This document shows positions 6,182-36,980 of a stretch of DNA of 57,525 bases, piece after piece (within the stretch, counting starts at the first letter, position 1; every line of letters begins with the position of its first letter). The position numbers and the translations under genes were made by a program. The notes under the pieces were generated by a model. It saw nothing but the letters and a program-made list of their open reading frames with translations, was not told where the DNA came from and searched no databases. This stretch comes from Natrialba swarupiae (GTDB taxonomy: Archaea; Halobacteriota; Halobacteria; Halobacteriales; Natrialbaceae): assembly GCF_008245225.1 (NCBI RefSeq), contig NZ_VTAW01000023.1, positions 1 through 57,525 of the forward strand, read 5' to 3'.

Positions 6182-6229
6182 ATGGTCCTCGAAGCTGTCT
6201 ATCTCGAGTCGACGGAGGAGATCGAATGA
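6182..6229 (+). CDS. 15-codon leader ORF overlapping the RND gene start
   Basis: An ATG at 6182 opens a frame of 15 residues (MVLEAVYLESTEEIE). Its TGA stop overlaps the RND start codon as ATGA, the arrangement typical of translationally coupled genes. A purine-rich GGAGGAG lies inside the mini-ORF, 7 bases before the RND ATG, and could act as its Shine-Dalgarno site. It may be a leader peptide, the stump of a lost upstream gene, or chance. The peptide has no recognised relatives. Confidence 0.35.
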   Translation: MVLEAVYLESTEEIE

Positions 6230-18185: not shown

Positions 18186-18333
18186 TCGGTACGGCTGCTC
18201 TCCGTCAGTTTCGGGACCGGAGAATGGGTGTGGCCCCACCGATACCGACTCACAACAGACCGTATCGTACGGACCGCAGTGTGTCTGTCCCGGTCGATCG
18301 GGGACCGGCAATCAGTCATCGCAAACCGTATCA
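18186..18333. repeat. Family A intergenic repeat filling a convergent gap (A3)
   Basis: The whole gap between the ribB stop and the stop of the minus-strand membrane gene is repeat-like. The right end, CATCGCAAACCGTATCA, is the family terminus, and its TCA (TGA on the minus strand) is the stop of that gene. Internal inverted arms include CCGTA-TCG-TACGG and CCGGTC/GACCGG. The left part is more degenerate than in other copies. Confidence 0.6.
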
Positions 18334-18681
18334 GTCGCCGTCGGTCTCCATCGTGTTCCGTCCCGATCCGGGGCCGCTTCGGTAGACAGCATAGAGGATC
18401 AGAACGGCAATCGCGAAGTCGAGTCCGTGTTCGACGAGGTGATGGACGGTCATCGGGACGACACCGAACACCGTTCCGAGGCCGACGAACGAGCGAGCGG
18501 CGAGCAAGCCGAGAACGAGCGTGATCAGGAGATATCGCATCGATCCACGCCGGGCGTAGGCGACGACGCCGCAGGCAAACAGAATCGTCGTCCCGAGAGC
18601 CGCGAGGATGATCACGACGAGGAGGACGGGGGCGAGCTGTGGATCGAGCCACCCGATCTCGAACGGGCTCGTGTGGTTCAT
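18331..18681 (-). CDS. Small membrane protein of the copper locus
   Basis: This gene encodes 116 residues with three hydrophobic helices (about 18-42, 52-72 and 78-98) and a short polar tail. A start at 18681 puts Met directly before the soluble N-terminus; an in-frame ATG at 18729 would add 16 residues. It is divergent to the winged-helix regulator and adjacent to a CopC-CopD gene, an association I recognise from haloarchaeal metal loci, so a metal-related role is likely but unproved. Its TGA stop is formed by the end of repeat A3. Confidence 0.65.
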   Translation of the reverse strand: MNHTSPFEIGWLDPQLAPVLLVVIILAALGTTILFACGVVAYARRGSMRYLLITLVLGLLAARSFVGLGTVFGVVPMTVHHLVEHGLDFAIAVLILYAVYRSGPGSGRNTMETDGD

Positions 18682-18897
18682 CTCCGCTATGCTACGTCGG
18701 TTGGAGAGACATGTATGTGCTTCGGTCATCCCCAGTGCTGTGGCTCTCGGCCACTCTCACGGCAATGCTCGGGCTCCGGAAATGGACGGGTCATATGGCG
18801 GTTCTCAGTTCCCTGGAACGATCGAAACCCGTTATCGTCGTCTACCGACTAGATCAGAGTACGCCGCGACGATCAACGGAAAACGCGATCGATACCA

Positions 18898-19425
18898 ATG
18901 AACGAGACACGACGACAGATCGAAGCACACGTCCAGGAAAACGTCGGAATCCACTTCAACGAGCTCGTCCGCGAATCCGAGTTCGCGCCGGGTCAGATCC
19001 AGTATCACGTCCGGCGGCTGATCAAGGGCGATCACCTCGTCAGAGCCGAGTTCTACGGCCGAACGCACTACTATCCGCCCTCGTACGACGAGTGGGAGCG
19101 AGCGGCCCTCGCGTTGTTTCGTCGCGAGACGACCCGCGAAATCGTCGTCCACCTGATCGAACACGAGCCCGCAGATCCGGATTCGGTCGCCGACGCACTC
19201 GACATCGCCAGGAGTACCCTCGAGTACCACCTCTCCCGACTCGTCGAGCACGAGATCGTCGAGAAGCGCTACGACGACCGAAAACGAGTTACACTCCGGC
19301 TCGCGAACCCCGACCGGACCGGTCGACTGCTGTCGGTGGTCGAGCCGACGGTCCCCGACCGACTCGTCGACCGATTCACTCGACTCGTCGACAACCTGCT
19401 CGAGCCTCCGGCTAACTCGCCCTGA
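18898..19425 (+). CDS. Double winged-helix transcriptional regulator
   Basis: This 175-residue protein has two winged-helix modules in tandem. The first is at about 3-58 (GIHFNELVRESEFAPGQIQY, then a recognition-like HVRRLI helix). The second is at about 65-120 (DPDSVADALDIARSTLEYHL). Tandem helix-turn-helix proteins of this kind are common haloarchaeal regulators. It is divergent to the small membrane protein and convergent with the CopC-CopD gene, so it probably controls this metal locus. No metal-binding Cys cluster is visible in it. Confidence 0.8.
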   Translation: MNETRRQIEAHVQENVGIHFNELVRESEFAPGQIQYHVRRLIKGDHLVRAEFYGRTHYYPPSYDEWERAALALFRRETTREIVVHLIEHEPADPDSVADALDIARSTLEYHLSRLVEHEIVEKRYDDRKRVTLRLANPDRTGRLLSVVEPTVPDRLVDRFTRLVDNLLEPPANSP

Positions 19426-19482
19426 CGCCGCTGGGCGCGACCGGACAGGTTGTATCGGCCCGATCGCCCTCCCGTATCTCGG

Positions 19483-21519
19483 TCACTCTCGGTCGAACCG
19501 TCCTCCGCGGAGCCGTAACGACTCGAGCGTGATTGCGACGACTCCGCCGACCACCGTGACGACGGCACCGAACTGGAGGAGCGTCTGGAAAGCTGTCGCT
19601 TCCTCTGGGCCTCCGTGATCCGCGTGGTCTTTCGCGTGAGTGTCGTGACCCGCTGCGTGGTCGTCGTGACCACCACCGTCGGCGTCCGCGTGGGTGTCGT
19701 GGTCATGCTCGTCAGCTGGAACCACCTCCGCATCGATCCACTCGCTCACGTACGACCCGTCAGGCGCTCCCGTAATCCGAAACTCCCACCTGCCTTCGTC
19801 GGCGAGCGGTTGGACGACAGCGTACGTGCCGTCGTCGGTCTCCTCGAGTTCGACCTCGAACTCAGTTCCATCGTCGCTACTCGCGAGCAGACGGACCGGC
19901 TGGTCGGAGGCAACCGCCTCGCCACCGTCCTCGAGAAACGCCACCTTGAAGACGATCGGTTCGTCCGCCTCGAGGACGAGCGCGTCGCCCGCCGTCTCCT
20001 CGGTGGCGGGAAACGCCGACAGTTCGACGAGATGGTCGTCGTACTCGTACTCGATGGTCGACTCGACGAGGTCGTCGCCGCTGGCGACCGCGGCTGTCGG
20101 CGCGGACGTGAGCACGCCCGAGAGCACCACGACGACGACCAGCAGGGCGACCTCGAGGCGGATGGACCGGACGACCGTCGAGACCGACCGGTCACGACTC
20201 GAGCGCTCGGTGCCGCCGTCCGTACTCGCAGGTCGGAGGCCGTCGGCGGTTTCGGGGCCCTGGTCGGCCGCCAGCCGGGGGAGGAGTACGAACCGCGAGA
20301 GTCCGCCGAGCCCGAGAGCCAGAGCAGCGAGGACGAGTTTCGCCACGAGCGTGAGACCGTAGATCGTTCCCGTGAGACCGTCGGCGGTCGGGACGTGCCA
20401 CGATGCGAGGACGAATCCCGACGCGACCACGAGCGTGACGCCGACGAACGCGAGGATCGAAAACCGGCCGATCGTTCGCGCGAGCAGGTCCGCTCTGTCG
20501 TCCGATTCCGCGTTTCGAACCACGGGGACGACGACCAGTGCGAGGACGACGAGCCCTCCCGCCCAGAGGCCAGCGCCGAGCAGGTGGACGAAGTCGACGA
20601 CAGCTCCCTCGAGTTGGTCGATTGCCGTCGCTGAGTGACTCGTCCAGGCGATCGTCCCCGCGACGGCAAGTGCACCCCCGAACACGACGACGTGGACCGC
20701 TCGTTTCACGAGGGGTCCTCGAGCCGCCGCCGTGACGAGGCCCGCCAGGACGGCGGCGAGCGTGACCTGTACGATCCAGGCCTCACCGAGAGGCGTCTCG
20801 ACGAACTGAGAGATCGTCTCGAGCGAGAGTGGCCCGAGTGCTGTACTTCTGGTGAGTCCGAGGACGACCGCGCCCACGAGCGTGAGGCCGGCGGCTCCGG
20901 CGAGGAGCCGGCCAATCCGTTCGTCGACGGACGATCGGGCGGCGGCGTCCGCTCGAGCGAAGGCCGGTCGGACTGCGAGCATCGCGACCGCCGGGATGCC
21001 GAGCAGCCCGACGACGCCGACGAGCAACAGCGCTTTCGCCCCGGCTTCGATCGCTGGGATCGTCTCGTCGGTCTCGTCTTCCTCGTAGGCCTCGAGGACG
21101 GCGTCTCGATCGAGCGGTTCGTCGCCGACGGCGAAGAAGAACGAGCCGGCAGTGGTGTGGCCGTCGTCGGCGAGCACCTCCCACTCGACGGTGTACATTC
21201 CATCGTCACCGGCCGCGTCGTCGATCGGCACGCGAACGATTTGCGTGTCGTCGGGATCGATCTCCGACTCCTCGGAGACGACCTCGCCGTCGGGATTCTC
21301 GAGGGTGATATCGGCGTTGACGACGCCGTCACCGGAGAAGTAAAGCGTCAGTTCATCGGGCAATGGGTCGACGTGCTCGCCGTTTGCGGGGTCGCTCTCG
21401 CTCAGGTAAGCGTGAGCTGCGACCGGTGTCACGAGACTCGTCAGTAGCACCGACCCGACGATGAGGATAACTATGAGAAGCGTTGCGTTCGAACGGGTAT
21501 GTCGATCGCTGTCAGTCAT
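19483..21519 (-). CDS. CopC-CopD fusion, copper resistance/uptake membrane protein
   Basis: This 678-residue protein has a signal sequence followed by a CopC domain starting at AHAYLSESDPANGE, where the mature N-terminal His would be the first copper ligand, with DDGHTTAG further on. About eight to nine membrane helices of the CopD domain follow (about 155-460), including WTSHSA and LHLLGAGLW-like His motifs. A soluble domain then carries a His/Asp-rich loop (EHDHDTHADADGGGHDDHAA and continuing) and a final membrane helix. CopCD proteins import or handle periplasmic copper. The start at 21519 is chosen because it precedes the signal helix, 20 bases after the propeller gene, so the two form an operon. 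Confidence 0.85.
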   Translation of the reverse strand: MTDSDRHTRSNATLLIVILIVGSVLLTSLVTPVAAHAYLSESDPANGEHVDPLPDELTLYFSGDGVVNADITLENPDGEVVSEESEIDPDDTQIVRVPIDDAAGDDGMYTVEWEVLADDGHTTAGSFFFAVGDEPLDRDAVLEAYEEDETDETIPAIEAGAKALLLVGVVGLLGIPAVAMLAVRPAFARADAAARSSVDERIGRLLAGAAGLTLVGAVVLGLTRSTALGPLSLETISQFVETPLGEAWIVQVTLAAVLAGLVTAAARGPLVKRAVHVVVFGGALAVAGTIAWTSHSATAIDQLEGAVVDFVHLLGAGLWAGGLVVLALVVVPVVRNAESDDRADLLARTIGRFSILAFVGVTLVVASGFVLASWHVPTADGLTGTIYGLTLVAKLVLAALALGLGGLSRFVLLPRLAADQGPETADGLRPASTDGGTERSSRDRSVSTVVRSIRLEVALLVVVVVLSGVLTSAPTAAVASGDDLVESTIEYEYDDHLVELSAFPATEETAGDALVLEADEPIVFKVAFLEDGGEAVASDQPVRLLASSDDGTEFEVELEETDDGTYAVVQPLADEGRWEFRITGAPDGSYVSEWIDAEVVPADEHDHDTHADADGGGHDDHAAGHDTHAKDHADHGGPEEATAFQTLLQFGAVVTVVGGVVAITLESLRLRGGRFDRE

Positions 21520-21538
21520 CGGTATCCGCAACCGGCAG

Positions 21539-22762
21539 TCATCGGTACCGGCCTGTGTATCCAGTTCCGGAGTCGCCGACATACTGGAGCGTGTCGACGG
21601 AAACACCGACGTCGATCAGTTCGGCTTCCTGGGCAGCCATATCGACGACGGCGACCGACTCGTCGGCGTCAGCTGGCGTGATGAAGTACTCGTCTCCGAC
21701 GACAGCCATCCGATTCCGGCCGTCGAACTCACCCGCCTCGAGCCGGTCGATCTCTTCGAGTGTGGCGACGTCGATGACGGCGACATCGCCCGATTCGGCG
21801 TTCGCGACGAAGGCGGTCTCACCCTCGGGCCCGAAGCGGACCGTTGAGGGATCGCCGTCGATTGCGAGGCTCCCGAGCACGTCACTGTCTTCACTGGTCA
21901 CATCGACAATGTAGACCTCATCGTCGACGATCGCGAGTCGATCCTCCTCGGGTGAGAGGAACATGCCGCCGGTGAACTCGAGTTCGTCGACGATTTCGTC
22001 GGTCTCGGTGTTGACGACAGTCGTCCCGCCGCGGTACTCGACGTACGCGAGACCGTTTCGTGGGCCGTAGGCCTTGTAGTGGGTGCTGCCGCCCTCGCCG
22101 AACTCGACGAATCCCGTCCGCTCGTAGGTCTCGAGGTCGATCACCGGCACGCCGGGATCGTTGACGTTCGTTGCATAGCCAGTGTCGCCCATCGCCTCGT
22201 GATAGAGGAGTTTGCCGTGGCCTTCGCCCTCGAGGCCGGCCTCGACGATTTCGCTCACCTCGAGGGCGTCGACGTCGATCACGTAGAACGCCCCATCGTC
22301 GTCGGCGTGGACCCAGATTTCGTCGTCCACCGGGTGGTAGATGTGATTGACGCCCGGACCGACGTCGATCGCGGTCTCGTGCGTACGCGTTTCGGTGTCG
22401 ATGACGTGGACCTGACTGAGCGACTGCTCGACGACGAATAGCAGTCCGTAATCATGGGTGATCTGTGGGTCCGCCCACGCCTCGTCGTCGAACTCGTCGG
22501 TGATCTCGTCGACGACGTCACCGTCGGCGGGGTCAAGAATCGAGATGCGATCCGGCGCAAACGCGTAGACGAGTCCGTCGCTGCCGACGGCCTCGGGTTC
22601 GGATTCGCCTCCATCGCTGTCGCCGTTGCCGTCGTCGGCACTAGCATCGTCTGTGTCGTCTGCGGCTCCGTCCGTCCCATCGCCAAGACAGCCAGCGAGA
22701 GACGCGATTGCGAGTCCGCCGACAGCCCCGATAACCGACCGTCGTTTGACGGAGTGATCCAT
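21539..22762 (-). CDS. YncE-like beta-propeller lipoprotein
   Basis: This 407-residue lipoprotein has a twin-Arg signal (KRRSVIGAVGG) and a lipobox LAGC, then an acidic linker. The mature part is a beta-propeller of YVTN/YncE type with repeats such as VHVIDTETRTHETAIDVG and VAVIDVATLEEIDRLEAG. Conserved His occur in HIYHPVDD and GHGKLLYHE. Some propellers of this shape are metallochaperones (AztD-like), which would suit its operon with CopC-CopD. ATG at 22762 is preferred over 22864 because the Tat signal begins there. A diverged C-terminal copy of the gene lies just upstream at 22861-22950. Confidence 0.8.
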   Translation of the reverse strand: MDHSVKRRSVIGAVGGLAIASLAGCLGDGTDGAADDTDDASADDGNGDSDGGESEPEAVGSDGLVYAFAPDRISILDPADGDVVDEITDEFDDEAWADPQITHDYGLLFVVEQSLSQVHVIDTETRTHETAIDVGPGVNHIYHPVDDEIWVHADDDGAFYVIDVDALEVSEIVEAGLEGEGHGKLLYHEAMGDTGYATNVNDPGVPVIDLETYERTGFVEFGEGGSTHYKAYGPRNGLAYVEYRGGTTVVNTETDEIVDELEFTGGMFLSPEEDRLAIVDDEVYIVDVTSEDSDVLGSLAIDGDPSTVRFGPEGETAFVANAESGDVAVIDVATLEEIDRLEAGEFDGRNRMAVVGDEYFITPADADESVAVVDMAAQEAELIDVGVSVDTLQYVGDSGTGYTGRYR

Positions 22763-22860
22763 ATCTGCTCTTTCGATGCTGTGGGTTATTCCATTTTGGT
22801 ACAGCAGTCGAAAACGTCGTTCGTGTGTCCGGAATCGGAGTGTGCCACTCCGTCGATCCG

Positions 22861-22950
22861 TCACCTGAGTTTGCCGCTGTAGCCGACGCCGGAGTCGCCG
22901 ACGTACTGTACCGTGTCGACGCCTTCCTCGACCTCGACGTGATCGACGAC
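22861..22950 (-). pseudogene. C-terminal stump of a second propeller gene
   Basis: On the minus strand, ending with TGA at 22861, a frame reads VEEGVDTVQYVGDSGVGYSG and ends KLR. The neighbouring propeller ends VSVDTLQYVGDSGTGYTGRY then R. The shared pattern VDT-QYVGDSG-GY-G--R over the last 22 residues shows a former paralogue now reduced to its tail. Upstream the frame loses similarity and reaches a stop without a start codon. It lies in the gap before ilvE. Confidence 0.7.
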
Positions 22951-23058
22951 TCTGCGACGACTCGAGAACCGGGATTCGGTGATGACTCGGGCCTCGCCGA
23001 CTCGCGGCGTCGATACAATCGCGAACACTTAGTACAGTGGCTTTCGACAGACACGGGT

Positions 23059-23988
23059 ATGGGATTCGACGAGATGGACGTCGACACGATCTGGATGGAC
23101 GGGGAGTACGTCGACTGGGACGAGGCGCAGGTCCACGTCCTCACGCACGGACTCCACTACGGAAGCGGCGTCTTCGAGGGCGCACGCTGTTATGACACCG
23201 AGCAGGGGCCGGCCATCTTCCGCTGGGAGGAACACTTAGAACGACTCTTCCAGTCGGCAAAGCCCTACGAGATGGAGATCGACCACTCGATCGAGGAACT
23301 CACCGAGGCGACGATCGAACTCATCCAGCGCCAGGAACTGCCCTCCTGTTACATCCGCCCGATCGCCTTCTACGGCTACAACTCGCTGGGCGTCAGTCCC
23401 AAGGACTGTCCCACCCGCACCGCCATCGCCGTCTGGCCGTGGGGTGCCTACCTCGGCGAGGAAGCCTTAGAGAACGGCATCGACGTGATGATCTCCTCGT
23501 GGCGCAAACACGCCTCGAGCCAGATTCCGACGAATGCGAAGACGACGGGACTGTACGTCAACAGCATGCTCGCCGGTGAGGAAGCCCGTCGCAACGGCTA
23601 CGCCGAGGCGATCGTTCTGAACAAGGAGGGCAACGTCGCCGAAGGTCCCGGCGAGAACGTCTTTCTCGTTCGCGACGGCGAGATCTACACGCCCGGTCTC
23701 TCGGAGTCGATCTTGGACGGCATCACGCGCGAGACCGTGATCACCCTCGCGGAGGATCTCGGCTATACGGTCCACGACAACGTCTCGATCTCCCGAGGTG
23801 AACTCAACACGGCCGACGAACTGTTCTTTACTGGCTCGGCAGCCGAGGTTACGCCGATCCGCAAGGTCGACAACGTCGTCATCGGCGACGGCTCGCGCGG
23901 ACCCGTCACCGAGGACATCCAGTCGCGCTTTTTCGACGTCGTCGAGCGCAAGACAGACGAGTACGACGAGTGGTTCACGTACGTCTAA
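23059..23988 (+). CDS. ilvE: Branched-chain amino acid aminotransferase
   Basis: This 309-residue class IV PLP aminotransferase interconverts leucine, isoleucine and valine with their 2-oxo acids. The N-terminal VHVLTHGLHYGSGVFEG, the PLP lysine in IPTNAKTTGLYVNSMLA, the EGPGENVFLV stretch and the SITRE-like GITRETVITLAEDLGY are all present. Length is normal for IlvE. ATG at 23059 is chosen as the usual family start. It is a single gene flanked by the propeller remnant and an MFS gene on the opposite strand. Confidence 0.92.
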   Translation: MGFDEMDVDTIWMDGEYVDWDEAQVHVLTHGLHYGSGVFEGARCYDTEQGPAIFRWEEHLERLFQSAKPYEMEIDHSIEELTEATIELIQRQELPSCYIRPIAFYGYNSLGVSPKDCPTRTAIAVWPWGAYLGEEALENGIDVMISSWRKHASSQIPTNAKTTGLYVNSMLAGEEARRNGYAEAIVLNKEGNVAEGPGENVFLVRDGEIYTPGLSESILDGITRETVITLAEDLGYTVHDNVSISRGELNTADELFFTGSAAEVTPIRKVDNVVIGDGSRGPVTEDIQSRFFDVVERKTDEYDEWFTYV

Positions 23989-24104
23989 CCGACTCGAGCG
24001 GGTGCTGACGTCGCACCGAAACCGATTTCGCCTCTTCTCGTGCGGTTTGGGACGACTGACGGCCGAGAGATCGTACGAGGCGTACGCGATCTCGAGTCCC
24101 GTGC

Positions 24105-25460
24105 TCAGTCCGACCCTTCGGGGCCGCTCCGAAGGTCTGGGTCCGGTTCTGGCTCCGACGCCGGGGCGAAGACGCGATCCGAGTAGAGCAACGCGACGAA
24201 GACGGCCGCCAGTACCGTCCCGAACGAGACGACGAGATAGCCCGAACGCATCCCGAGATGCTCGAGCAGATACCCGATGAGGGTGGGAAATGCCGCGCCA
24301 GTCAGCGTTCCAGCCGTGAAGATGTAGCCAAACACTCGGCCTTCGAACTCGGGGGGCGTGAGATCGCTGATCAGCGCGTCTCGAGCCGGATTGACCCCGT
24401 AGAGGCCGCCGCCGAGGACGAACAGTACGGCGACGAGCGCCGCCGGGTGGAGGTCGAAGACGGCCAGCGCAACCATGCCGACGGTCGCGAGCAGCATACA
24501 ACCGATCAACACGAGCCGCGAGTCGTACTCGTCGGTTACTCCGCCCAGGTACAGCTGCATCGCGGCGCCGGCGAGCAACACGAGCGCGAAGTAGACGCTG
24601 GCAACCGACTCGGCGCCGACGTGGACGCCGACGGCCTCGAACGAGTGGGCGTACACCGCGACCAGAAACGCCGGGAGAAAGGCGGTGATGGCGTGGCTCG
24701 TGACGCTGCTCGAGACGAAGAAGAAGTAGATTACAGCCATCGGATAGAAGAAGGTTCGAGGCTCCGTTCGGGCTAACTCCGCCGTCGTTTCCGCGCCCGT
24801 ATCGTCGTCCGTTCGCTGCCCGGACGGGACGGTCTCGAACTCGTCGCTGCGCAACGCCAGAAAGAGCGCGATCCCGTAGAGGATCCCTACCACGCCGAAG
24901 ACGAGGATGATCTGCTCCCAGGACAAAAGGAGGATCAGCGCGGCGATGGTGGCAGGCGTCGCGGCGTCGCCGAGTTTCGACGAGGCGCCAAAAAAGCCGA
25001 GGACCTTCCCTTTGTTTCGGTCGTCGACGTTGTCCGTAATCATCGGGTAACCGGCCGGGTGGACGACGGCCAGTCCGACCCCGACGATCACCATCGCGAC
25101 GGCCATGACGAGAAATCCTCCCTCGAAGGTGGGTCCGAACACCGTCACGGCGGGGAGTGGCCCACCGAGCGTCGGCGCGAACGCGAAGAGAACGTACGCG
25201 CCACCGGCAACCGCGAGTCCGACCGGGAGGAGGTAGCGCCGATCGACCCGATCCGCGAGGACGCCAAGCGGCGCCTGGACGATACCCATGCCGATCGAGT
25301 ACAGTGTAATCAACAGCCCCAGTTGCCACAGCGGATACTCGAGTGCAACCGCGAGGACAGGGACGAGCGGTGGAAGCACCCGGTAGAAGACGTGCTGAAC
25401 GAAGTGTGACGAACTGATCAGAACTGCGAACTCGAGTTCGCGCCGAGAGAGACCATACAT
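24105..25460 (-). CDS. MFS transporter
   Basis: This 451-residue protein has twelve hydrophobic segments in two six-helix halves. The helix 2-3 loop motif is GVLADRVDRRYLLPVG, the classic MFS DRxGRR pattern. A cytoplasmic central loop lies after helix 6 (DEFETVPSGQRTDDD...). Several His/Asp residues near helices 1 and 7 give no clear substrate hint. ATG at 25460 is chosen because it precedes a short amphipathic N-terminus; a start at 25508 would add 16 Arg-rich residues. It is convergent with ilvE. Transported substrate unknown. Confidence 0.85.
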   Translation of the reverse strand: MYGLSRRELEFAVLISSSHFVQHVFYRVLPPLVPVLAVALEYPLWQLGLLITLYSIGMGIVQAPLGVLADRVDRRYLLPVGLAVAGGAYVLFAFAPTLGGPLPAVTVFGPTFEGGFLVMAVAMVIVGVGLAVVHPAGYPMITDNVDDRNKGKVLGFFGASSKLGDAATPATIAALILLLSWEQIILVFGVVGILYGIALFLALRSDEFETVPSGQRTDDDTGAETTAELARTEPRTFFYPMAVIYFFFVSSSVTSHAITAFLPAFLVAVYAHSFEAVGVHVGAESVASVYFALVLLAGAAMQLYLGGVTDEYDSRLVLIGCMLLATVGMVALAVFDLHPAALVAVLFVLGGGLYGVNPARDALISDLTPPEFEGRVFGYIFTAGTLTGAAFPTLIGYLLEHLGMRSGYLVVSFGTVLAAVFVALLYSDRVFAPASEPEPDPDLRSGPEGSD

Positions 25461-25580
25461 CGATCTGACGTCGCCCACCACGGCCCTTGACCGTCTGCGT
25501 CTCGGCAAAACAGGTCAGTTCTCACTGCGCGAACAGAATCGGAACCGAGTGGGATGGACCCCGCTGCCAGCAGTCTCTCT

Positions 25581-25683
25581 CGGACGAGTTACTCTCCGTC
25601 ACTGCCGGCCCACCCGCGACCTGTCTGCGGGTTCGCCGGGAGATCGGAACAGCAATCCGTCCCAGTCATCGCAAACCATATCA
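25581..25683. repeat. Family A palindromic intergenic repeat (A4)
   Basis: The core arms CCGGCCCACCCGC and GCGGGTTCGCCGG enclose a nine-base loop (GACCTGTCT), and the outer part reads GGAACAGCAATCCGTCCCAG. The right end, CATCGCAAACCATATCA, supplies the stop codon (TCA, read as TGA) of the minus-strand DUF502 gene. The repeat lies between two minus-strand genes, immediately 3' of DUF502 and upstream of the MFS gene. Confidence 0.75.
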
Positions 25684-26385
25684 ATCGTCGTCGGTCGCAT
25701 CCGCGTTCTTACTCGTGGTCGCCTCGTCGACGACGTCGATCGAGACGCCGGCGTCCATGCCGCGCTGACGGTCCGCATCGCCGAACCCGGCGCTCAAGAC
25801 CCGCGTGAGCGCATCCTCGACGTCCTCGTCTAGTTCCTCGATTCGGTCCGAGTGAACCTCGATGACGAATCCCGTGGTAATGTTCGGCGACGTCGGCAGA
25901 AACAGTACTTCCCTCCCGTCTTCAGTCACTTTCCCCGTCTTGAACGCTGTCATCCGGAGCCCCTCCCAGACCTCGAGTTTGACCGGGGTCTGAAGGGATT
26001 CCTGCTCGCCGAAGGCGGTTTCCGCCGCCATCTTCGAGGCGTTGTAGACGACGCGCATGACGGGGACGCGGTTCGCGACGTTGTCGACGAGACGTTCGAC
26101 GAGCCCGCCGACGGTCGTCCGCATGAGATACCCCACCGAGAGCGTGAGAATAACGAAGACGGTTAACGTGACGAGGACCCGGAGAAACTGGGCGAGCTGT
26201 CGTCGGGTCTGGGCGGCCTGGTCGCTCTCGCCCGGAATGAGGGGCTCGAGGGCATCCGGTCGGAGAATGAGTTCAGGAGAGAACCCGGCGACGAGCCCGT
26301 AGATCCAGTAGATAACGTAGAGAGTGATGAGAATTGGGCCGAGGACGATCAGCCCGCTCGCAAAGTCCCGCTTCCACGAAGCCAT
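25681..26385 (-). CDS. DUF502 family membrane protein
   Basis: This 234-residue protein matches the DUF502 family: a first membrane helix FASGLIVLGPILITLYVIYW at about 8-27, a second helix block at about 85-110, and a conserved soluble segment with NRVPVMRVVYNASKMAAETA, then VFLPTSPNITTGFVIEV-like residues. The function of the family is unknown. Start at 26385 (ATG followed by ASWKRDFASG) matches family members; an upstream ATG at 26397 adds four residues. The last residues are Asp-rich and the stop is formed by repeat A4. Confidence 0.85.
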   Translation of the reverse strand: MASWKRDFASGLIVLGPILITLYVIYWIYGLVAGFSPELILRPDALEPLIPGESDQAAQTRRQLAQFLRVLVTLTVFVILTLSVGYLMRTTVGGLVERLVDNVANRVPVMRVVYNASKMAAETAFGEQESLQTPVKLEVWEGLRMTAFKTGKVTEDGREVLFLPTSPNITTGFVIEVHSDRIEELDEDVEDALTRVLSAGFGDADRQRGMDAGVSIDVVDEATTSKNADATDDD

Positions 26386-26647
26386 GGTGTGAACCACTCA
26401 CCAGGGACTAATGAGCCCTTCCCTTTAGCGCCCGAGGATCGCCCGGAGGGCGAATCGTCGGTTTTCATTCCGTTCCAGCACTCGGCGTAGAAGTGCGAAT
26501 TCCGCCGATCGCCGTCGGGGTCTACAGATGAGCAAGGCGAGTGCCTCGAGGTCAAGTCCCGAGGCAGTTCACTGATATAGATTATCGTCGACGTGCAGCG
26601 AGTCGAAAACCCGGTCCTTCTTAGCCTCGCCGCGGTAACCGTTGTAC

Positions 26648-28180
26648 ATGGACCGTCGCACACCACCGCAGACCGAAGAGGGCTGGTACGTGCTCCACGA
26701 CTTCCGGTCGATCGACTGGGATGCCTGGCGCGACGCACCCGAGCGCCGACGTTCACAGGCGATCGACGAAGGAATCGAATATCTCGCCGCGGCCGAACGA
26801 CTCGAGGACGCCGACGCGGGCGACTCGGCGACGTTCTCCGTGCTCGGCCACAAGGCCGACCTGCTGATCCTCCACCTCCGGCCGACGCTCGCGGATATCG
26901 ACGCCTTAGAGCGCCAGTTCGAACACACCGCATTCGCCGAGTTCACCGAGCGCGCCGACTCGTACGTCTCCGTGACCGAAGTGTCGGGGTATCTGTCCCA
27001 GGAGTACTTCGAAGAGGACAGCGAAGTCGAGGAGACGGGTATCAAGCGCTACATCGAGTCCCGCCTCGAGCCCGAGATTCCGGACGCCGAGTTCTGTAGC
27101 TTCTACCCGATGGACAAGCGCCGCGGCCCGGATCACAACTGGTACGAACTCCCGTTCGACGAGCGTGCCGAGTTCCTCTCGAATCACGGCGAGATCGGCA
27201 AAGAGTACGCCGGACGAGTCACCCAGATCATCTCCGGGAGCATCGGCCTCGACGACTTCGAGTGGGGCGTAACGCTGTTCAGCGACGATCCGACCGACGT
27301 CAAGGAACTGCTCTACGAGATGCGTTTCGACCCCTCGAGTTCGCGTTTCGCCGAGTTCGGCCGGTTCCTCTCCGCTCGCCGGTTCCCCGCCGAGAACCTC
27401 GGTGCGTACCTCGCGGGCGAACCGGTTCCCCAGAACGGGGCAGCCGACGCGCACGGTCACCCACACGGCAGGTCGGAGGGGGGCCAGGGCCACGGCTCGA
27501 GTGGCCACTCACACGGGGACGGAGACTCCCACGGCTCCGACGGCGACTCCGACGGCGGCCCGCATAGTGGCGATTCGGACGTCCGGAGCGAACTCGAGGA
27601 GGCGGGCATCTACGCGGGCAAGCCCCACGGTGAGGACGTCCACGCGGTCGTCCTCTACTCGGCGGCCGATCCCGACGAGCTGTTCGAGGAGGTAGAGGGC
27701 CTCCGGGCGAACTTCGACCACTACGATACGCACGTCAAGACCGCAGTGTACGAACCGAGCGAGGCGGGCTCGAGCGGGGGCGACGGCGAAACCGGGGTCG
27801 TCAGCCTCTGGGAGACCGACCGCGCGGCGAATACGGCCGCCGGCTTCCTCGCGGATCTGCCGGAGGTCGTACGCCAGGCCGGAGACGATACCGAGGATTC
27901 CTGGGGGACGATGGGGATGTTCTACACCGTCAAATCCGAGCACAGAGACGACTTCACGGACACGTTCGGCGACGTCGCCGCGTTGCTCGCCGACATGGAC
28001 GGCCACCGGAAGACCGACCTGCTGGTCAACCGCGAGAACGAAGACGACATGTTCATCGCCAGCCGCTGGGACTCCCGTGGCGACGCGATGGAGTTCTTCC
28101 GGAGCGACGCGTTCTCCGAGACCGTCGAGTTCGGCCGTGACGTCCTCGCCGATCGACCGCGACACGTCTTCCTGGCCTGA
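26648..28180 (+). CDS. pitA: PitA: HemQ/chlorite dismutase-like domain fused to an ABM domain
   Basis: This 510-residue two-domain protein matches haloarchaeal PitA. Residues about 10-250 form a chlorite-dismutase/HemQ-like heme fold, with SFYPMDKRRGPDHNWYELPF and a likely axial His180 in SNHGEIGKEYAG. HemQ proteins decarboxylate coproheme to heme in the coproporphyrin pathway. Residues about 320-505 form a ferredoxin-like antibiotic biosynthesis monooxygenase (ABM) domain. A His/Gly/Ser-rich linker of about 50 residues (HGHPHGRSEGGQGHG and continuing) joins them and may bind metal. The fusion is a known haloarchaeal arrangement; heme biosynthesis is the favoured role but the ABM contribution is unknown. 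Confidence 0.9.
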   Translation: MDRRTPPQTEEGWYVLHDFRSIDWDAWRDAPERRRSQAIDEGIEYLAAAERLEDADAGDSATFSVLGHKADLLILHLRPTLADIDALERQFEHTAFAEFTERADSYVSVTEVSGYLSQEYFEEDSEVEETGIKRYIESRLEPEIPDAEFCSFYPMDKRRGPDHNWYELPFDERAEFLSNHGEIGKEYAGRVTQIISGSIGLDDFEWGVTLFSDDPTDVKELLYEMRFDPSSSRFAEFGRFLSARRFPAENLGAYLAGEPVPQNGAADAHGHPHGRSEGGQGHGSSGHSHGDGDSHGSDGDSDGGPHSGDSDVRSELEEAGIYAGKPHGEDVHAVVLYSAADPDELFEEVEGLRANFDHYDTHVKTAVYEPSEAGSSGGDGETGVVSLWETDRAANTAAGFLADLPEVVRQAGDDTEDSWGTMGMFYTVKSEHRDDFTDTFGDVAALLADMDGHRKTDLLVNRENEDDMFIASRWDSRGDAMEFFRSDAFSETVEFGRDVLADRPRHVFLA

Positions 28181-28249
28181 CCGCCGCGATCGGCGTTCGA
28201 TTCGTTCGGTCCTCGATTCGGAAACCGACCGCAGTCTGCGGACGACGAT

Positions 28250-30007
28250 GTGTCGATGACGTCACCTGCACTCGCTACCGTACAGTTGCTCGGCGCAGTG
28301 GTCGCGATCGCACTCGCGAGCTACGCCTATCGGCACCGTGATCGGCCGGGCGTCATCTGGCTCGTCGCGGTTCTGTTCGGAAACACGGTCTGGATGGTCG
28401 CGGCAGGTATCAACTACGCGACTGGGTCAACCACGGTCTCGACGGCGATGTTGCAGGTGCGCTACGTCGGGATCACCGTCATCCCCGTCGCGCTGTTGTT
28501 CTTCGCCCTGTCGTACACCGGCACCGACGAGTGGCTGGGGCGGCGACGGCAGCTCCTGATCGCGTCGCCGGCCGCCGGAGCGCTCGCCCTCGCGCTCACC
28601 GACCACGTCCACGGGCTGTTCTACGCGGGCGTCACCCCGGCGTCGAACCCCCAACAGATCGCCTACGAGTACGGAATGGTCGCGGTGCCGTGGATCGCCT
28701 ACGCGTTCGTGCTCGTGGTGGCCGCCGCGGCCGTCTTCGTTCGGTACGCGACGATCACCGACGGTGTCTACCGCTGGCAGGCGCTCGCGCTGGCCGGCGT
28801 CGTGTTAATGGGGACCGCCGCCGACGTGCTGTACTTCCTGCCGGTTCCGCCGACCGGGTTCGCGATTACCCCCCTGGCTATCCTCCTCTCGAGTGCGATC
28901 GCCGTCGGCCTCGTCGTCCGGTACGACTTCGTCCGTCTCGTCCCTGCGACTCGCGAACTCGGGCGGCGGGAACTCATCGAGCGGATGGAGCTGGGTATGG
29001 TGGTACTGGATGCCGACGGCAGGGTCATCGACGTCAATCCCGCCGCGGCCAAACTCCTGGAGTGTGACCTCGAGGCGGTGATCGGCGAGCAGGCACCGGA
29101 CTCGCTTCCCGGTCCGAACGGCCCCGCTATCGCCGAACGTACGTTCAACGTCGACGGTATCGACCGCGACGTCGAGATTCGGACTCACCGGGTCGACGTC
29201 GGCTCGGGGATCACGTTGCTTACCCTCCGGCAACTCGACGATCTAACGGACGTCGTCTCCCACGACCTGCAGGGCCCGCTCATGGAGATCCGCGGGAGCG
29301 CAGACATGGCGATCGCGACGGGCGACATCACCCACGTCGATCGCGTCCTCGCCGCCGCCAACCGGATCGACGACCTCGCGACCGACCTGTTAGAGCTCGC
29401 ACACACGGGCCGAGGACTCGAGGCGCGTGAGTCAGTCGAGCTTGCCGAAATCGCCGAAACGGCGTGGAGACATCTCTGGACGCCGGAAACCGAACTCGTC
29501 GTCGAGACTGACCGGTCGGTCATCGGCGACCCAGATCGGATCCAGCAGCTGTTCGAAAACCTCCTTCGGAACAGCGTCGAACACGCCTCGAGCGACCACG
29601 AACGAGGTGATGACGGTATCGACACGATCGCGTACAGCGAAGCGACGGGAGACGACGTCACCCAGGCACAGCGGACGACTCGTAAGTCCACTCGAGAATC
29701 GAACTTCGATCCGGTCGACGAGCGCGAGACCGCTCCCGCAGACGGGGGTCGTATCGTCGTCGGCTCGCTTCCCACCGGATTTTACCTCGAGGACGACGGA
29801 CCGGGTATCCCGCCCGAGAAGCGAGAGCGAATCTTCGAGAAGGGGTACACCACGTCACAGACCGGAACCGGACTCGGACTGAGCATCGTCGGCCGGATCG
29901 TCGCTGCCCACGGCTGGTCCGTCCGCGCGACCGAGGGTTCGCTCGGGGGAGCGCGAATCGAGATCACTGACGTCGATTTCGTCGACGAGTCCGAGCGGAC
30001 GGGGTGA
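28250..30007 (+). CDS. Histidine kinase with N-terminal 7TM sensor and PAS domain
   Basis: This 585-residue sensor kinase has seven membrane helices (about 8-228) of the histidine kinase 7TM type, a PAS domain (about 240-325, starting MELGMVVLDADGRVIDVNPA), a HisKA-like helix with phospho-acceptor His338 in VVSHDLQGPL, and a HATPase domain (about 430-580). The ATPase boxes are intact: N-box LFENLLRNSVEHAS, G1 DDGPGIP and G2 TGTGLGLSIVG. An insert of about 60 polar residues splits the N and G1 boxes. GTG at 28250 is used; ATG at 28256 is equally possible. Its partner receiver may be one of the two proteins at 31-33 kb. Confidence 0.88.
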   Translation: MSMTSPALATVQLLGAVVAIALASYAYRHRDRPGVIWLVAVLFGNTVWMVAAGINYATGSTTVSTAMLQVRYVGITVIPVALLFFALSYTGTDEWLGRRRQLLIASPAAGALALALTDHVHGLFYAGVTPASNPQQIAYEYGMVAVPWIAYAFVLVVAAAAVFVRYATITDGVYRWQALALAGVVLMGTAADVLYFLPVPPTGFAITPLAILLSSAIAVGLVVRYDFVRLVPATRELGRRELIERMELGMVVLDADGRVIDVNPAAAKLLECDLEAVIGEQAPDSLPGPNGPAIAERTFNVDGIDRDVEIRTHRVDVGSGITLLTLRQLDDLTDVVSHDLQGPLMEIRGSADMAIATGDITHVDRVLAAANRIDDLATDLLELAHTGRGLEARESVELAEIAETAWRHLWTPETELVVETDRSVIGDPDRIQQLFENLLRNSVEHASSDHERGDDGIDTIAYSEATGDDVTQAQRTTRKSTRESNFDPVDERETAPADGGRIVVGSLPTGFYLEDDGPGIPPEKRERIFEKGYTTSQTGTGLGLSIVGRIVAAHGWSVRATEGSLGGARIEITDVDFVDESERTG

Positions 30008-30178
30008 CGGTGTGATCGGATCCGCCCGTCGGTCGGTCAGATCCGCCGGCTTCGCCATCTGAGCGATCGCCTCGGAGTTCGAGGCGGATCCGCTCTCGGT
30101 TCGATCGGCTCCGAGACAAATCTGCTCTCGGTTCGGCTGGTCCCGGTTACGTCGCGGTAGGTCTCCGGTGAGTTCCTG

Positions 30179-30188
30179 GTTAGCTAAC
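30179..30188. promoter_or_regulatory. Short palindrome before the lipoprotein gene
   Basis: GTTAGCTAAC is a perfect 10-bp palindrome about 30 bases upstream of the lipoprotein ATG, followed by a second TAA-containing half site (ACTAAC). Position and composition suit a promoter or operator. The preceding 170 bases hold only imperfect GCTCTCGGTTCG direct repeats and small stem-loops. Confidence 0.3.
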
Positions 30189-30218
30189 GTACTAACGGGT
30201 CATGGACAGACGTGTGGC

Positions 30219-30983
30219 ATGCACGTTTCGACGGGGCGACGCCGATTGCTCGCCTCCTGTGGGGCCGGAGTCGCGTTCGCGTTCGCCGGATGTATCGAAA
30301 CCACGATCGACGACTCGAGTTCCGAAGCGATCGGTGACGACGCTGGAGACGGAACGACGGCTGGAGCCGACGGCGACGATCCCGCGGCGTCGTCCGACGG
30401 CGGGCACAATCCCGAGACAGATACCGAAAACGCCCAATCCGAGGACGGGGAGGACGCGCTTTCCGTGGATGGTGCCGAGTACGAGTCGATCGACGGCGGG
30501 CCGCCGATCGGAGAGCTCGTCGAGTGGGCTGACTCCTACGTCATCGACATCGAGATGCGCAGAGCCAGTGCGGGGGATTTCGAGGGGACCGGCAGGCAGG
30601 TCGTTCACCAGGGGGAGTTTCACTACGAACTCTCGATGGACGACGGAAAACTCGAGATCTATCAGTTCGATTCGACCGAGTACTACGTCTTCGGCGGCCA
30701 CTGTCGCGAACGGGAGCCGACCGAGCCCGACCTCCACGTGCTCGAGCCCGAGAGACGACCCGGTGAGGTGTTTCCGGAGACGGAGCCGATCGCGAGGACG
30801 ACGATCGACGGCTCGGACGTCTACGTCTACGAGATGCCGGCGTCACCCGAGAACGAGTACTGGTATCTCAGCACGTCGACGGGCTATCCGGTTCGGTTCA
30901 GATCCCAGCGAGTCACCGCAGAGTTTCGCTCCTGGGACGAGACTGAGTCGATTTCGCCGCCGGAGATGGAGTGTGAGAGCTGA
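30219..30983 (+). CDS. Lipoprotein of unknown function
   Basis: This 254-residue protein has an Arg-rich Tat-like signal (TGRRRLLASCGAGVAFAF) and a lipobox FAGC at about 25-28. A long acidic, low-complexity linker follows (to about 95). The folded part has strands and conserved aromatic residues, including YHYELSMDD-like and YQFDSTEYYVFGGHCRE, and resembles haloarchaeal outer-surface lipoproteins with LolA-like shape. No precise family is recognised. The ATG at 30219 directly precedes the signal. The TGA stop abuts repeat A5, which separates it from the convergent receiver-kinase gene. Confidence 0.7.
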   Translation: MHVSTGRRRLLASCGAGVAFAFAGCIETTIDDSSSEAIGDDAGDGTTAGADGDDPAASSDGGHNPETDTENAQSEDGEDALSVDGAEYESIDGGPPIGELVEWADSYVIDIEMRRASAGDFEGTGRQVVHQGEFHYELSMDDGKLEIYQFDSTEYYVFGGHCREREPTEPDLHVLEPERRPGEVFPETEPIARTTIDGSDVYVYEMPASPENEYWYLSTSTGYPVRFRSQRVTAEFRSWDETESISPPEMECES

Positions 30984-31066
30984 GACGGATTGCCGTCCCG
31001 ATATACCGGTGCAACCGCCACACGGGTCGCGGGTGCGCCGGAACTGACTGACAGGAAACCGTATCA
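30984..31066. repeat. Family A repeat spanning an entire convergent intergenic gap (A5)
   Basis: The repeat begins at the base after the lipoprotein TGA and ends in the TCA that is the stop of the opposite gene, so nothing else lies between the two genes. The outer arms are GACGGATTGCCGTCCC and GACAGGAAACCGTATCA (imperfect), and the inner arms are CCGGTGCAACCGC and GCGGGTGCGCCGG. It is the clearest complete copy of the family. Confidence 0.8.
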
Positions 31067-32182
31067 GTCGTCGCGATAGACGCCGACTCGGTCGAGACCG
31101 ACGGTGACGACGGTTCCCCGTGGCCGGTTGTCCTCGACGCGAAACTCGGCGTCGATGCTCTCGAGGACGGTCGCAACGAAGTACAGTCCCGCGCCGATTC
31201 CGGCACGCCGATCCGCGTCGTCGCCGACGTTCGTGAGGCGACGTTTCTGCGCGTCGGGGATGCCGACGCCGTCGTCGGCGATCGAAACGATGACTCGCTC
31301 GTCGGTCACCTCGAGGTCCACCTCGACGGTCGATCGGTCGCGGTCGGTGTGGGTTATCGCGTTCGTGAGCAGTTGTTCGAAGACGGCCCCGAGCGTCGGC
31401 GTTCCCACGACCGAAAGCGGCTCGTCGTCCGCCGTCGCCCAGTCGACGGTGAGGTCGACGTCGGTCTCGCGCCGACAGCGCTCGAGTTCCGCGGAGAGAA
31501 TCGCACGGAGGTCGCAGGGTTCGGATTCCGTTACTCGTTCCTCGGAAAGGACGTCGATCAGTTTGGCGGCGGTGTCGGTGAGTTCGAGGGCGTGTTGGCT
31601 CGCCTCGAGTATCGACTCGACGGACTCCCGGTCGTCCGGACCGACCCGGTCTCGAAGCTGATCGCCCCAGCCGACGATCATACTGACGTCGTTTCGGAGA
31701 TCGGTCCGAAGAATCTCGTTAACCAGCGCGAGTCGATGGTTTCGGTCGCGGAGTTCGCGCGTGATGCGGACGCGCTCGATCGCGTACTGGATCGTCCGAA
31801 CGAGAATGTCGACGCTGATCCGGCCTTTGACGAGATAATCCTGTGCGCCCCGTCGGATCGCTTCGACCCCGACGCCGCTTTGGCCCGTCAGCACGACCAC
31901 CGGAACGGAGGGTGCGCGCTCGACCATCGCGTCGACCGTCTCGAGGCCGTTGCTGTCCGGAAGACCGAGATCGAGAAGGACGATGTCGATGCGATCGTCG
32001 GTAACCCGTTCGAGTCCGTCCCCGAGCCGTTCGACGTGCTCGATCTCGGTGACCTCGACCGATCGATCCTCGCCCTGTGTCCCACGTTCACTTCCGTGTT
32101 CGACGAGCAACCGCTCGACGAACTGCGCGTCGTTGGGATTATCCTCGACGAGCAGAAGAGTCGTTCCCTCTGACGAGTCCAT
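31064..32182 (-). CDS. Receiver-HATPase hybrid lacking the phospho-acceptor histidine
   Basis: This 372-residue protein starts with a receiver domain (about 5-125; LLVEDNPNDAQFVERLL, phospho-acceptor Asp71 in VLLDLGLPD, Lys119 in YLVKG). A HisKA-like helical region and a HATPase domain follow (about 145-370), with AVFEQLLTNAITHTD, DDGVGIP and AGIGAGLYFV. In haloarchaeal kinases the dimerisation helix reads LRHDLRND; here it reads LRTDLRND, so Thr160 replaces the His. It may be a phosphorelay sink, an allosteric partner or a decayed kinase. It is divergent to the winged-helix/receiver gene, and its stop codon comes from repeat A5. Confidence 0.85.
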   Translation of the reverse strand: MDSSEGTTLLLVEDNPNDAQFVERLLVEHGSERGTQGEDRSVEVTEIEHVERLGDGLERVTDDRIDIVLLDLGLPDSNGLETVDAMVERAPSVPVVVLTGQSGVGVEAIRRGAQDYLVKGRISVDILVRTIQYAIERVRITRELRDRNHRLALVNEILRTDLRNDVSMIVGWGDQLRDRVGPDDRESVESILEASQHALELTDTAAKLIDVLSEERVTESEPCDLRAILSAELERCRRETDVDLTVDWATADDEPLSVVGTPTLGAVFEQLLTNAITHTDRDRSTVEVDLEVTDERVIVSIADDGVGIPDAQKRRLTNVGDDADRRAGIGAGLYFVATVLESIDAEFRVEDNRPRGTVVTVGLDRVGVYRDD

Positions 32183-32284
32183 ACGCGTCTCTGTGCACAG
32201 TCCCTCCTAACCGTTACGTTCACTCGATTCGTCATCGGCTTCGGAGGACAAAACGAATATGGCGGTCCACTCGGTACTGGACCC

Positions 32285-33106
32285 ATGACCTATCGTGACG
32301 CTGATATCCCGGCGGAAAATCATCGAGCGCTCGAGGCGTTGACGCTGCTCTCGAAGAAGTGGTCGCCGATCATCCTGCTCATGTTACAACATCACGGCTC
32401 GCAGGGCTTTAACGAGCTTCTCGAGGGAGTCCCGGACATCTCGTCGAAGGTGCTCTCGGATACGCTCGATACGCTTCAGGAGGCGGGACTGATCGAGCGA
32501 CGAGTGGTCAGCGAGTCGCCGCTTCGCGTCGAATACGACCTGACCGAGGCCGGACGGGACATGGAGCCCATCTTCGAATCGTTGGCCGACTGGGTCGAGG
32601 CACATCTCGAGACGACGACACGAACGGTCTTGCTCGCCGACGGCGACCGACGGATCACGGAGATGTACCGACAGTGGCTGTCGGACCGGTACACCGTCGT
32701 CCGGGCACACGATAGTAAGGAGTTCTACGAGCGGTTCGACGATCGAATCGACGTCGTCCTCCTCGACGCCGGCCTACCCGGAATCGATCCACGACGCTTC
32801 GTCGACGACGCGAAAGAGCTCTGTCGAACGGCCCTCATCGTCGGTGACCGACCAGATCCCGAACTGCTGTCCGTCGACTGCGACGATATCTTGCGAAAGC
32901 CGTTCGTCCGTGAAACGGCCCTCAAAACGGTCGCCGATCAGCTCTCGCGTCTCGAGGAGTCCGAAGACCAGCGCGCCCGGACGGCGCTCGAGGCAAAGCG
33001 ATCGCTGTTCGAGTCGATCTATTCGACCGAACAACTCGAGGAGGAACAAGCCTATCGAGACGCGCTCGCGCGTCTCACCGAGCTCGAGCGACAGGAGTCG
33101 GAGTGA
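32285..33106 (+). CDS. HxlR-type winged helix fused to receiver and HalX-like domain
   Basis: This 273-residue protein joins three modules. Residues about 10-105 form an HxlR/PadR-type winged helix (LLSKKWSPIILLMLQHHGSQ). Residues about 115-220 are a receiver-like domain (LLADGD acidic pair, Asp in VVLLDAGLPG, Lys in ILRKPF). Residues about 225-270 are a HalX-like helical tail (EAKRSLFESIYSTEQLEEEQ). DNA binding precedes the receiver, the reverse of most response regulators. The conserved Thr/Ser of the receiver appears to be Gly (ALIVGD). It is divergent to the receiver-kinase hybrid and the two probably work together. Confidence 0.8.
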   Translation: MTYRDADIPAENHRALEALTLLSKKWSPIILLMLQHHGSQGFNELLEGVPDISSKVLSDTLDTLQEAGLIERRVVSESPLRVEYDLTEAGRDMEPIFESLADWVEAHLETTTRTVLLADGDRRITEMYRQWLSDRYTVVRAHDSKEFYERFDDRIDVVLLDAGLPGIDPRRFVDDAKELCRTALIVGDRPDPELLSVDCDDILRKPFVRETALKTVADQLSRLEESEDQRARTALEAKRSLFESIYSTEQLEEEQAYRDALARLTELERQESE

Positions 33107-33132
33107 GCTCGAGAAACGGAAATCGGAGCAAG

Positions 33133-33167
33133 GCGACCGCGAGTCATACGGATCGCAGACCGTATCA
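33133..33167. repeat. Short family A remnant (A6)
   Basis: Only the terminal part is present: GTCATACGGATCGCAGACCG then TATCA. ATACGG and CCGTAT form a small stem. The TCA at 33165-33167 is the stop codon of the minus-strand 62-residue gene. It lies in the convergent gap after the winged-helix/receiver gene. Confidence 0.6.
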
Positions 33168-33353
33168 AATGTTGCCGTCGGAACTCGTTTCGTCGTAGAA
33201 AAAGTAGGCAGCGACGCCAGCGAGGCCCAACGCGAGGGTGACGTACGGCCAACGTCCGGCGTTCCGTTCAGTAAACGATGCGTGTGCCGCGACGAAAATC
33301 GCAAAGCCAACGTGGGCGAGCGCCGTCGCGAGCAGAAACGAGGCCAGATCCAT
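33165..33353 (-). CDS. Small two-helix membrane protein
   Basis: This gene encodes 62 residues with two hydrophobic helices (about 5-26 and 37-53) and a short acidic tail (DETSSDGNI). No family is recognised, but the ordered helices and ATG at 33353 support a real gene. Its stop is provided by repeat remnant A6. It is followed, after about 175 bases without a visible gene, by the DUF5611 gene on the same strand. Confidence 0.6.
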   Translation of the reverse strand: MDLASFLLATALAHVGFAIFVAAHASFTERNAGRWPYVTLALGLAGVAAYFFYDETSSDGNI

Positions 33354-35592: not shown

Positions 35593-36720
35593 ATGACCGT
35601 CATCGAGTCCGTCCACGCGGACCACGGGGCGACCTTCGGCGAGCGCGGCGGCCGGAAAATCGTCGAGCACTTCGGCCGACCCGAACGAGCACACCGCGCG
35701 GTTCGAAACGGCGTTGGCCTCATCGAGGCCGTCTACGGCGTGATCGTCGTCGAAGGCGACGACCGCCGCGAGTACGTTGACAACGTCGTTTCCAACCGCG
35801 TGCCAGCCGAGGACGGCCAGGGCTGTTATGCGCTCGTGTTAGGCCCACAGGGAGGGATCGAGGTCGAACTCTACATCTACAACGCCGGCGAGCGACTTCT
35901 ATTGTTCGTCCCGCCCGAGACGGCCCAACCGCTCGCCGAAGACTGGTCCGAGAAGGTGTTCATCCAGGACGTCGAGATCACCGTCGCGACCGACGAGTAC
36001 GCGATCTTCGGCGTTCACGGCCCCAAGGCAACGGAGAAGATCGCGAGCGTCTTAAACGGAGCCGCCTCCCCCGACGAGCGGCTCTCGTTCGTCCGCGGGA
36101 CGATGGGCGACGCCGGCGTCAGCGTCGTCCGCACGGACGCGATCACCGGCGAGGAGAGCTACGAGGTGATCTGTGGCGTCGACGAAGCCACGGACGTCTA
36201 CGACGTCCTCCTGAATCAGGGACTGAACGCCGCTCCGTTCGGCTATCGCACCCTCGAGAGCCTCGCACTCGAGGCTGGCTCGCCGCTTTTCGACACCGAA
36301 CTCGAGGGACGGATTCCGAACGTGCTCGGACTCCGAACCGCACTTGACTTCGAGAAGGGCTGTTACGTCGGCCAGGAGGTGGTCTCCCGCGTCGAGAACC
36401 GCGGCCGTCCGAGCAAACGACTCGTCGGGCTCACGCTCGACACCGACGCGACGCTCGAAGCCAGTGAGAGACCGACGGACCAACCGGTTCCGGAGGCGGG
36501 TGCGGCCGTCTTCGACGGCGACTCGAGCGTCGGCGAGGTCACGCGAGCGGGGGTAAGCGAACTGCTCGAGGTGCCGGTCGCGCTCGCCGTGGTCGCCTAC
36601 GACGTAGAGAACGATCAGTTGTCGGTTCGCGTCGACGGCGAGGAACTCCCGGCGGTCCGAACGGACCTGCCGTTCGTCGACGGCTCGGATCGGTCCGGTC
36701 GGCTCCCGACTTACGAGTGA
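35593..36720 (+). CDS. ygfZ: YgfZ/GcvT-like folate-binding Fe-S maintenance protein
   Basis: This 375-residue protein resembles aminomethyltransferase GcvT but carries the KGCYVGQEVVSR signature of YgfZ/IBA57 proteins, which use folate to support iron-sulfur enzymes. The N-terminal tetrahydrofolate fold (GLIEAVYGVIVVEGDDR and following) and C-terminal barrel are complete. True glycine cleavage T proteins lack the Cys motif, which favours YgfZ. ATG at 35593 is the only well placed start. The TGA stop is immediately followed by repeat A7. Confidence 0.85.
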   Translation: MTVIESVHADHGATFGERGGRKIVEHFGRPERAHRAVRNGVGLIEAVYGVIVVEGDDRREYVDNVVSNRVPAEDGQGCYALVLGPQGGIEVELYIYNAGERLLLFVPPETAQPLAEDWSEKVFIQDVEITVATDEYAIFGVHGPKATEKIASVLNGAASPDERLSFVRGTMGDAGVSVVRTDAITGEESYEVICGVDEATDVYDVLLNQGLNAAPFGYRTLESLALEAGSPLFDTELEGRIPNVLGLRTALDFEKGCYVGQEVVSRVENRGRPSKRLVGLTLDTDATLEASERPTDQPVPEAGAAVFDGDSSVGEVTRAGVSELLEVPVALAVVAYDVENDQLSVRVDGEELPAVRTDLPFVDGSDRSGRLPTYE

Positions 36721-36885
36721 GCCGGGTTGCTGTCCCGATCTCCCGGCGCAATCGCCCTAGTGGTTTGGCAAGCCTGCACTGCAGGGTCGACTCGAACCAC
36801 ACCACCGAATTCGACCCTGCGGTCGACGCTTGTCGGAGTACTAGGGGTCGCAGGTGCGCTGGAACTGACTGACAGTAAACCGTAC
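36721..36885. repeat. Family A repeat interrupted by a family B element (A7)
   Basis: The left half, GGGTTGCTGTCCCGATCTCC then CGGCGCAATCGCC, begins right after the ygfZ stop. The right half is GGGGTCGCAGGTGCGC, then GGAACTGACTGACAGTAAAC and CGTAC. Joined, they match copy A5. The 86-bp element B1 separates them at the position of the loop. About 95 bases of unassigned sequence follow before the CorC-type gene. Confidence 0.75.
36758..36843. mobile_element. Family B element, MITE-like (B1)
   Basis: An 86-bp element with imperfect terminal inverted repeats: TAGTGGTTTGGCAAGC at the left, and GCTTGTCGGAGTACTA (reverse complement TAGTACTCCGACAAGC) at the right. The centre, CTCGAACCACACCACCGAAT followed by TCGACCCT, is shared with B2 and B3. 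It is bordered on both sides by CTAG, a possible 4-bp target duplication, and lies in the loop of repeat A7. It has no coding capacity. Confidence 0.7.
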
Positions 36886-36980
36886 GAGACGGTCCGGTGT
36901 CCGTCAGTTTGAGCGCGACAGTGCAAAACGGCGTCCCAGAACGGTGGGACGAAAGGTGTCCCGATGCGATCGGAGCACGG

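Follow-up and report, generated by a model that had tools for sequence, protein, structure and literature searches.

The window, a 57,525-nucleotide stretch corresponding to contig NZ_VTAW01000023.1 (C30) of Natrialba swarupiae, contains multiple copies of two palindromic repeat families that have a TACGG end in common. Family A is an approximately 80-bp palindrome of the form TACGG...CCGTA, both ends of which constitute terminal inverted repeats (TACGG[AT]TT.CTGT). The sister palindrome, family B (TACGGTYTGCGATGAC...; TACGGTYTGCGATGACTGATTGCCGGTCGATCG...GCGGTCCGTA), has TGA triplets of its own that coincide with stop codons; copies lie at 18265-18333, 25665-25683, 48637-48655 and about 55744. 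The copies in the window are as follows:

5920-6004, degenerate family A copy, off stop codons
14094-14178, family A copy between divergent genes
18265-18333 (minus strand), family B copy of 63 bp plus the triplets TGA and CGA (decayed), the TGA being the stop of gene 18331-18681
25580-25664, family A copy adjoining the family B copy at 25665-25683 and probably nested within it
25665-25683 (minus strand), family B end (TGATATGGTTTGCGATGAC), the TGA being the stop of gene 25681-26385
30981-31066, family A copy with terminal triplets, the terminal TGAs being the stops of convergent genes 30219-30983 (plus) and 31064-32182 (minus)
33144-33167 (minus strand), 18-bp deleted remnant (TACGGTCTGCGATCCGTA) with direct TGA...TGA flanks, the first TGA being the stop of gene 33165-33353
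36718-36887, family A copy interrupted by a different repeat (about 36752-36847), the left TGA being the stop of gene 35593-36720 (plus)
45952-46037, family A copy, off stop codons
48637-48739, family A copy (48656-48739) inserted where a family B end (48637-48655) has its internal TGA, off stop codons, with the nearest stop 4 bp away

An earlier note on this DNA had reported that the TCA triplets (plus strand) at 18331-18333, 25681-25683, 31064-31066 and 33165-33167 represent TGA stops of ORFs on the minus strand, and these coordinates proved exact. The note assigned a family A end to all four; this holds for 31064, whereas the ends at 18331, 25681 and 33165 belong to family B. As it also stated, the repeat at 30984-31066 is bounded by stops on both sides. 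The left one, TGA 30981-30983 of the plus-strand gene 30219-30983, and TGA 36718-36720 of the plus-strand gene 35593-36720 are two cases beyond the original four.

Other repeats were seen as well. Members of a third family (about 61-96 nt, CTAGT...CGACAAGCGTCGACTGCAG...) occur at 36752-36847, 45825-45920 and 51206-51266, the first of them within the family A copy at 36718-36887. Six tandem 19-bp units resembling a family B end (ACGGTCTGGGACGACT) are present at G000:C34:16564-16674. The plus-strand ORF 6226-9903 (1225 aa) contains two arrays of an in-frame 21-bp repeat (6629-7380), with ELEE-rich segments that probably form a coiled coil.

The analysis covered 1.64 Mb of the host genome (39% of 4.2 Mb, in 99 contigs), in which an iterated nucleotide HMM identified 144 family A copies. 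Judged by one protein of the window, the nearest named relatives are Natronoglomus, Natrarchaeobius and Natronobiforma, which places the host in Natrialbaceae. A simple, home-made ORF caller based on codon usage predicted 1494 genes, with 83% of the sequence coding. For every element end faced by the 3′ end of a gene, we measured the offset from the first base of the stop codon to the terminal T of the element. This tally, which the earlier note had proposed, is clearly non-random: the offset is exactly 0 at 59 of the 146 gene-facing ends, and any other offset occurs three times at most. The same exact coincidence is found in two congeners, at 14 of 21 ends in G003 and 12 of 41 in G001. Seven annotated stops also coincide with an element boundary on NCBI-annotated plasmids from six other Natrialbaceae species. 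The genes concerned encode an archease (Natrinema thermotolerans), a cellulase-family protein and a PHP-domain protein (Halomontanus rarus), a glycosyltransferase (Natronorubrum daqingense), VOC proteins (Natribaculum luteum and Natronorubrum aibiense) and a FAD oxidoreductase (Natrialba magadii). The N. thermotolerans copy (plasmid CP031304.1; L210:1501-1586) lies in the archease stop just upstream of an intein-containing rtcB.

The simplicity of the ORF caller and the prevalence of TGA, the commonest stop (845 of the 1494 called genes), might suggest that the matches reflect coincidence or faulty gene calling. We attach practically no weight to this explanation, as the matches are concentrated at a single base offset, NCBI annotation in other genera gives an equal pattern and the orthologues are conserved. 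The original observation is confirmed, and was in fact understated; chance is excluded as its cause.

Examination of the element boundaries revealed a target-site duplication. The two flanking triplets are identical in 62 of 105 full copies, compared to 7 at most in any shifted register. Read on the plus strand, they are TGA/TGA in 27 copies, TCA/TCA in 29 and inverted (TGA/TCA) in 3. These terminal triplets lie outside the element and are a 3-bp duplication of T(G/C)A; the non-identical triplets in the other 43 copies are attributed to decay. Independent proof comes from family A copies nested in the internal TGA of family B (C72:704, C72:123054 and C60:3313), where the TGA is duplicated and family B resumes beyond the insert. 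An empty family B copy at C4:136009 matches the host copy at C72:704, variable centre included. The nested copies thus provide exact empty and filled sites. A TA duplication of the IS630/Tc1 type, considered on account of ends reading TA...TA, was rejected, since the nested sites duplicate TGA and the TA belongs to the insert.

Many copies have TGA on the stop side and CGA on the far side. The simplest reading of this asymmetry is that selection maintains the triplet used as the stop while the spare one decays. The pattern is clearest in G003, where most full copies on contig C1 (L158-L184) have TGA on one side and CGA on the other, with GACGG, rather than TACGG, following the TGA. We read this pattern, too, as decay of the spare triplet, which leaves its consistency unaccounted for.

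Direct duplication implies that the TGA next to the gene was in frame before insertion. Orthologue comparison confirms this order of events. Reciprocal best pairs with G003 and G001, both different species, number 245; in 27 of them the stop is directly followed by [TG]ACGG in only one genome (a set that includes a few chance KACGG matches other than elements, e.g., C37_254291), and the median difference at the C-terminus is 0. Where the occupied stop is TGA, the unoccupied partner uses TGA as often (18/26) as the background (168/245). Within the window, the G003 orthologue of gene 35593-36720 stops at the same codon and that of gene 33165-33353 five codons earlier, both without the element, and the orthologue of the minus-strand gene 31064-32182 ends at essentially the same residue. 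Comparison of loci lacking the repeat, which the earlier note had called for, indicates that insertion mostly left the stop unchanged. The stop codons preceded the element.

Either end of the element can carry a TGA, and one could imagine that insertions inside genes supplied new, earlier stops. The copy at 30981-31066 may be such a case: both of its ends serve as stops, yet its terminal triplets are inverted, so one of the two stops was probably acquired after insertion, possibly TGA 30981-30983. The gene ending there (30219-30983, plus strand) has no orthologue among the sequences compared. As a general explanation, truncation or stop capture is contradicted by orthologue C-termini of equal length and by stop usage at background level, and direct duplication demands a TGA already in frame; we consider it barely tenable.

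Together with its terminal inverted repeats and target-site duplication, the short, non-coding and multicopy nature of family A identifies it as a non-autonomous mobile element of the MITE (miniature inverted-repeat transposable element) kind, present in high copy number. The element enters TGA, with a preference for GAC-TGA-GACG, and generates the 3-bp duplication. At a TGA stop, the gene-proximal triplet is the pre-existing stop, still in its own frame; the protein remains unchanged and a spare TGA is left beyond the element. Movement would depend on a DDE transposase acting in trans. To this explanation as a whole, namely insertion into TGA with duplication, pre-existing stops, a transposase in trans and survival of insertions at harmless sites, we assign a probability of roughly 90%. 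The earlier note had offered insertion at TGA stop codons as one of two possibilities, and the duplicated TGA, the nested empty and filled sites and the position of orthologue stops bear it out.

Stops account for 11% of noncoding TSA sites and for 43% of full-length insertions, an over-occupation of about four times. The preferred insertion context has GAC before the TGA and GACG after it, and part of the excess stems from this sequence preference combined with the frequency of genes ending in GAC-TGA. GAC-TGA sites are hotspots in either setting, being occupied in 15 of 97 cases at stops and in 13 of 154 at noncoding non-stop positions. With another C-ending triplet before the TGA, the figures are 19/269 and 11/1514, respectively, and in the remaining triplet contexts 11/467 and 17/4704. 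Non-GAC TGA stops are thus occupied 6.5 to 9.7 times more than other noncoding TGAs, and weighting by context predicts only about 20% of insertions at stops versus the 43% observed. These figures could indicate active targeting of gene 3′ ends or stop codons by the machinery, over and above its preference for the local sequence. We find this doubtful: in the GAC-TGA context the stop to non-stop ratio is only 1.8, which is not significant, and the same excess can arise if insertions in promoters and spacers are selected against. The idea that the family's machinery selects TGA stops, in their 3′-end context, as a safe harbour, with duplication regenerating the stop during spread through Natrialbaceae, seems to us similarly unlikely. 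We favour the view that the residual excess arises mainly from the survival of harmless insertions, as those in coding sequences and promoters are removed: element density drops from about 1.2 per kb in convergent spacers to 0.24 per kb in divergent ones. Duplication of the stop leaves the gene with one, so such an insertion does little harm, and this may account for the abundance of the element.

The earlier note's second possibility was a conserved role in 3′-end formation. The palindrome might be a functional signal (a terminator, an RNA stabiliser or a processing hairpin) selected next to stops. It folds into a strong hairpin whose inner stem pairing is kept through many double substitutions across copies, and element density peaks in convergent spacers. 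A signal of this kind does not readily account for the direct duplication of TGA or for the 21 of 144 copies that lie between divergent genes. Furthermore, orthologues usually lack the element, insertions are mostly unshared by congeners, many genera within Natrialbaceae are devoid of it and the window yielded no Rfam match above gathering score. These findings go against a conserved role, and we judge selection as a 3′ signal very improbable. Compensation in the inner stem is consistent with the hairpin being required for mobility, or with repair between the arms. The hairpin could still act as RNA, and individual copies may later have been co-opted in ways that affect 3′ ends.

The distribution of the element was surveyed with a 17-nt end pattern (one mismatch at most). 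Of 61 related genomes, 25 gave matches. The host's family accounts for 23 of these (37 genomes surveyed), several of them having about 65-260 matches; the other two are among 24 genomes outside the family but within the same order, with one or two matches each. Plasmids of Halococcus, Halapricum and others carry further, weaker copies, and viral contigs gave no match to the strict end pattern. The stop-following motif is present in both members of only 4 of 31 congener pairs. Most stop insertions are thus unshared between congeners, which indicates that the element has been recently active on this scale.

An autonomous partner with TACGG ends was not found in 2.4 Mb plus 77 loci, the majority of which lie at transposase genes. 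When TACGG ends with matching triplets were paired over distances of 130-3500 bp, the pairs merely linked adjacent MITEs, and a looser end-pairing scan returned noise. At the loci sampled in this and five related genomes, the ends near DDE_Tnp_1, Y1 and DDE_Tnp_1_2 transposases did not match.

Like known MITEs, the element is short, non-coding, mainly intergenic and present in high copy number, with terminal inverted repeats and a target-site duplication. It differs from them in being palindromic over almost its entire length, in having a large share of copies exactly in stops and in that no parent transposon was found. IS5-family elements (IS1031-like) duplicate 3 bp of target, with the sequence TNA. 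The duplication described here is of this type, but no transposase with TACGG ends was present among the loci sampled. The REP/BIME palindromes moved by RAYT are likewise abundant extragenic palindromes near gene ends. REPs are not known to make a target duplication. They are 20-40 bp long (PMC3733652) and bear a GTAG or CGTC tag, whereas the present element measures 80 bp and has TACGG ends and a 3-bp duplication.

Closer in host are the short mobile repeats of the haloarchaeon Haloquadratum walsbyi, its SMRs and MITEs, which measure 80-110 bp and have inverted ends; the SMRs, too, are without known transposase. SMRs insert without duplicating the target, for the most part at IS605-type elements and PATEs (PMC3119063); here, a duplication is present and the targets are TGA triplets in spacers and stops. 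Mycobacterial MIRUs insert at start codons and are translationally coupled at a spacing of -4 nt (2025 review, PMC12548453). They, too, are small mobile repeats at a translation signal that affect the gene little. Sequence and host are different, however, and the MIRU ORF is coupled to the downstream gene, whereas the copies described here occupy isolated stops, and a coupled ORF would not obviously fit into the non-coding palindrome of about 80 bp. Stop codons go unmentioned in a 2024 review of prokaryotic MITEs (PMC10969869). No earlier description was found in the searchable papers on archaeal MITEs or stop-codon insertion, a search to which ISfinder and subscription journals were external.

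The large hairpins found at gene ends in these archaea are explained by these insertions, and reading them as terminators needs evidence. More generally, a mobile element can spread in a gene-dense genome by targeting the commonest stop and duplicating it, so that both protein and termination remain unchanged.
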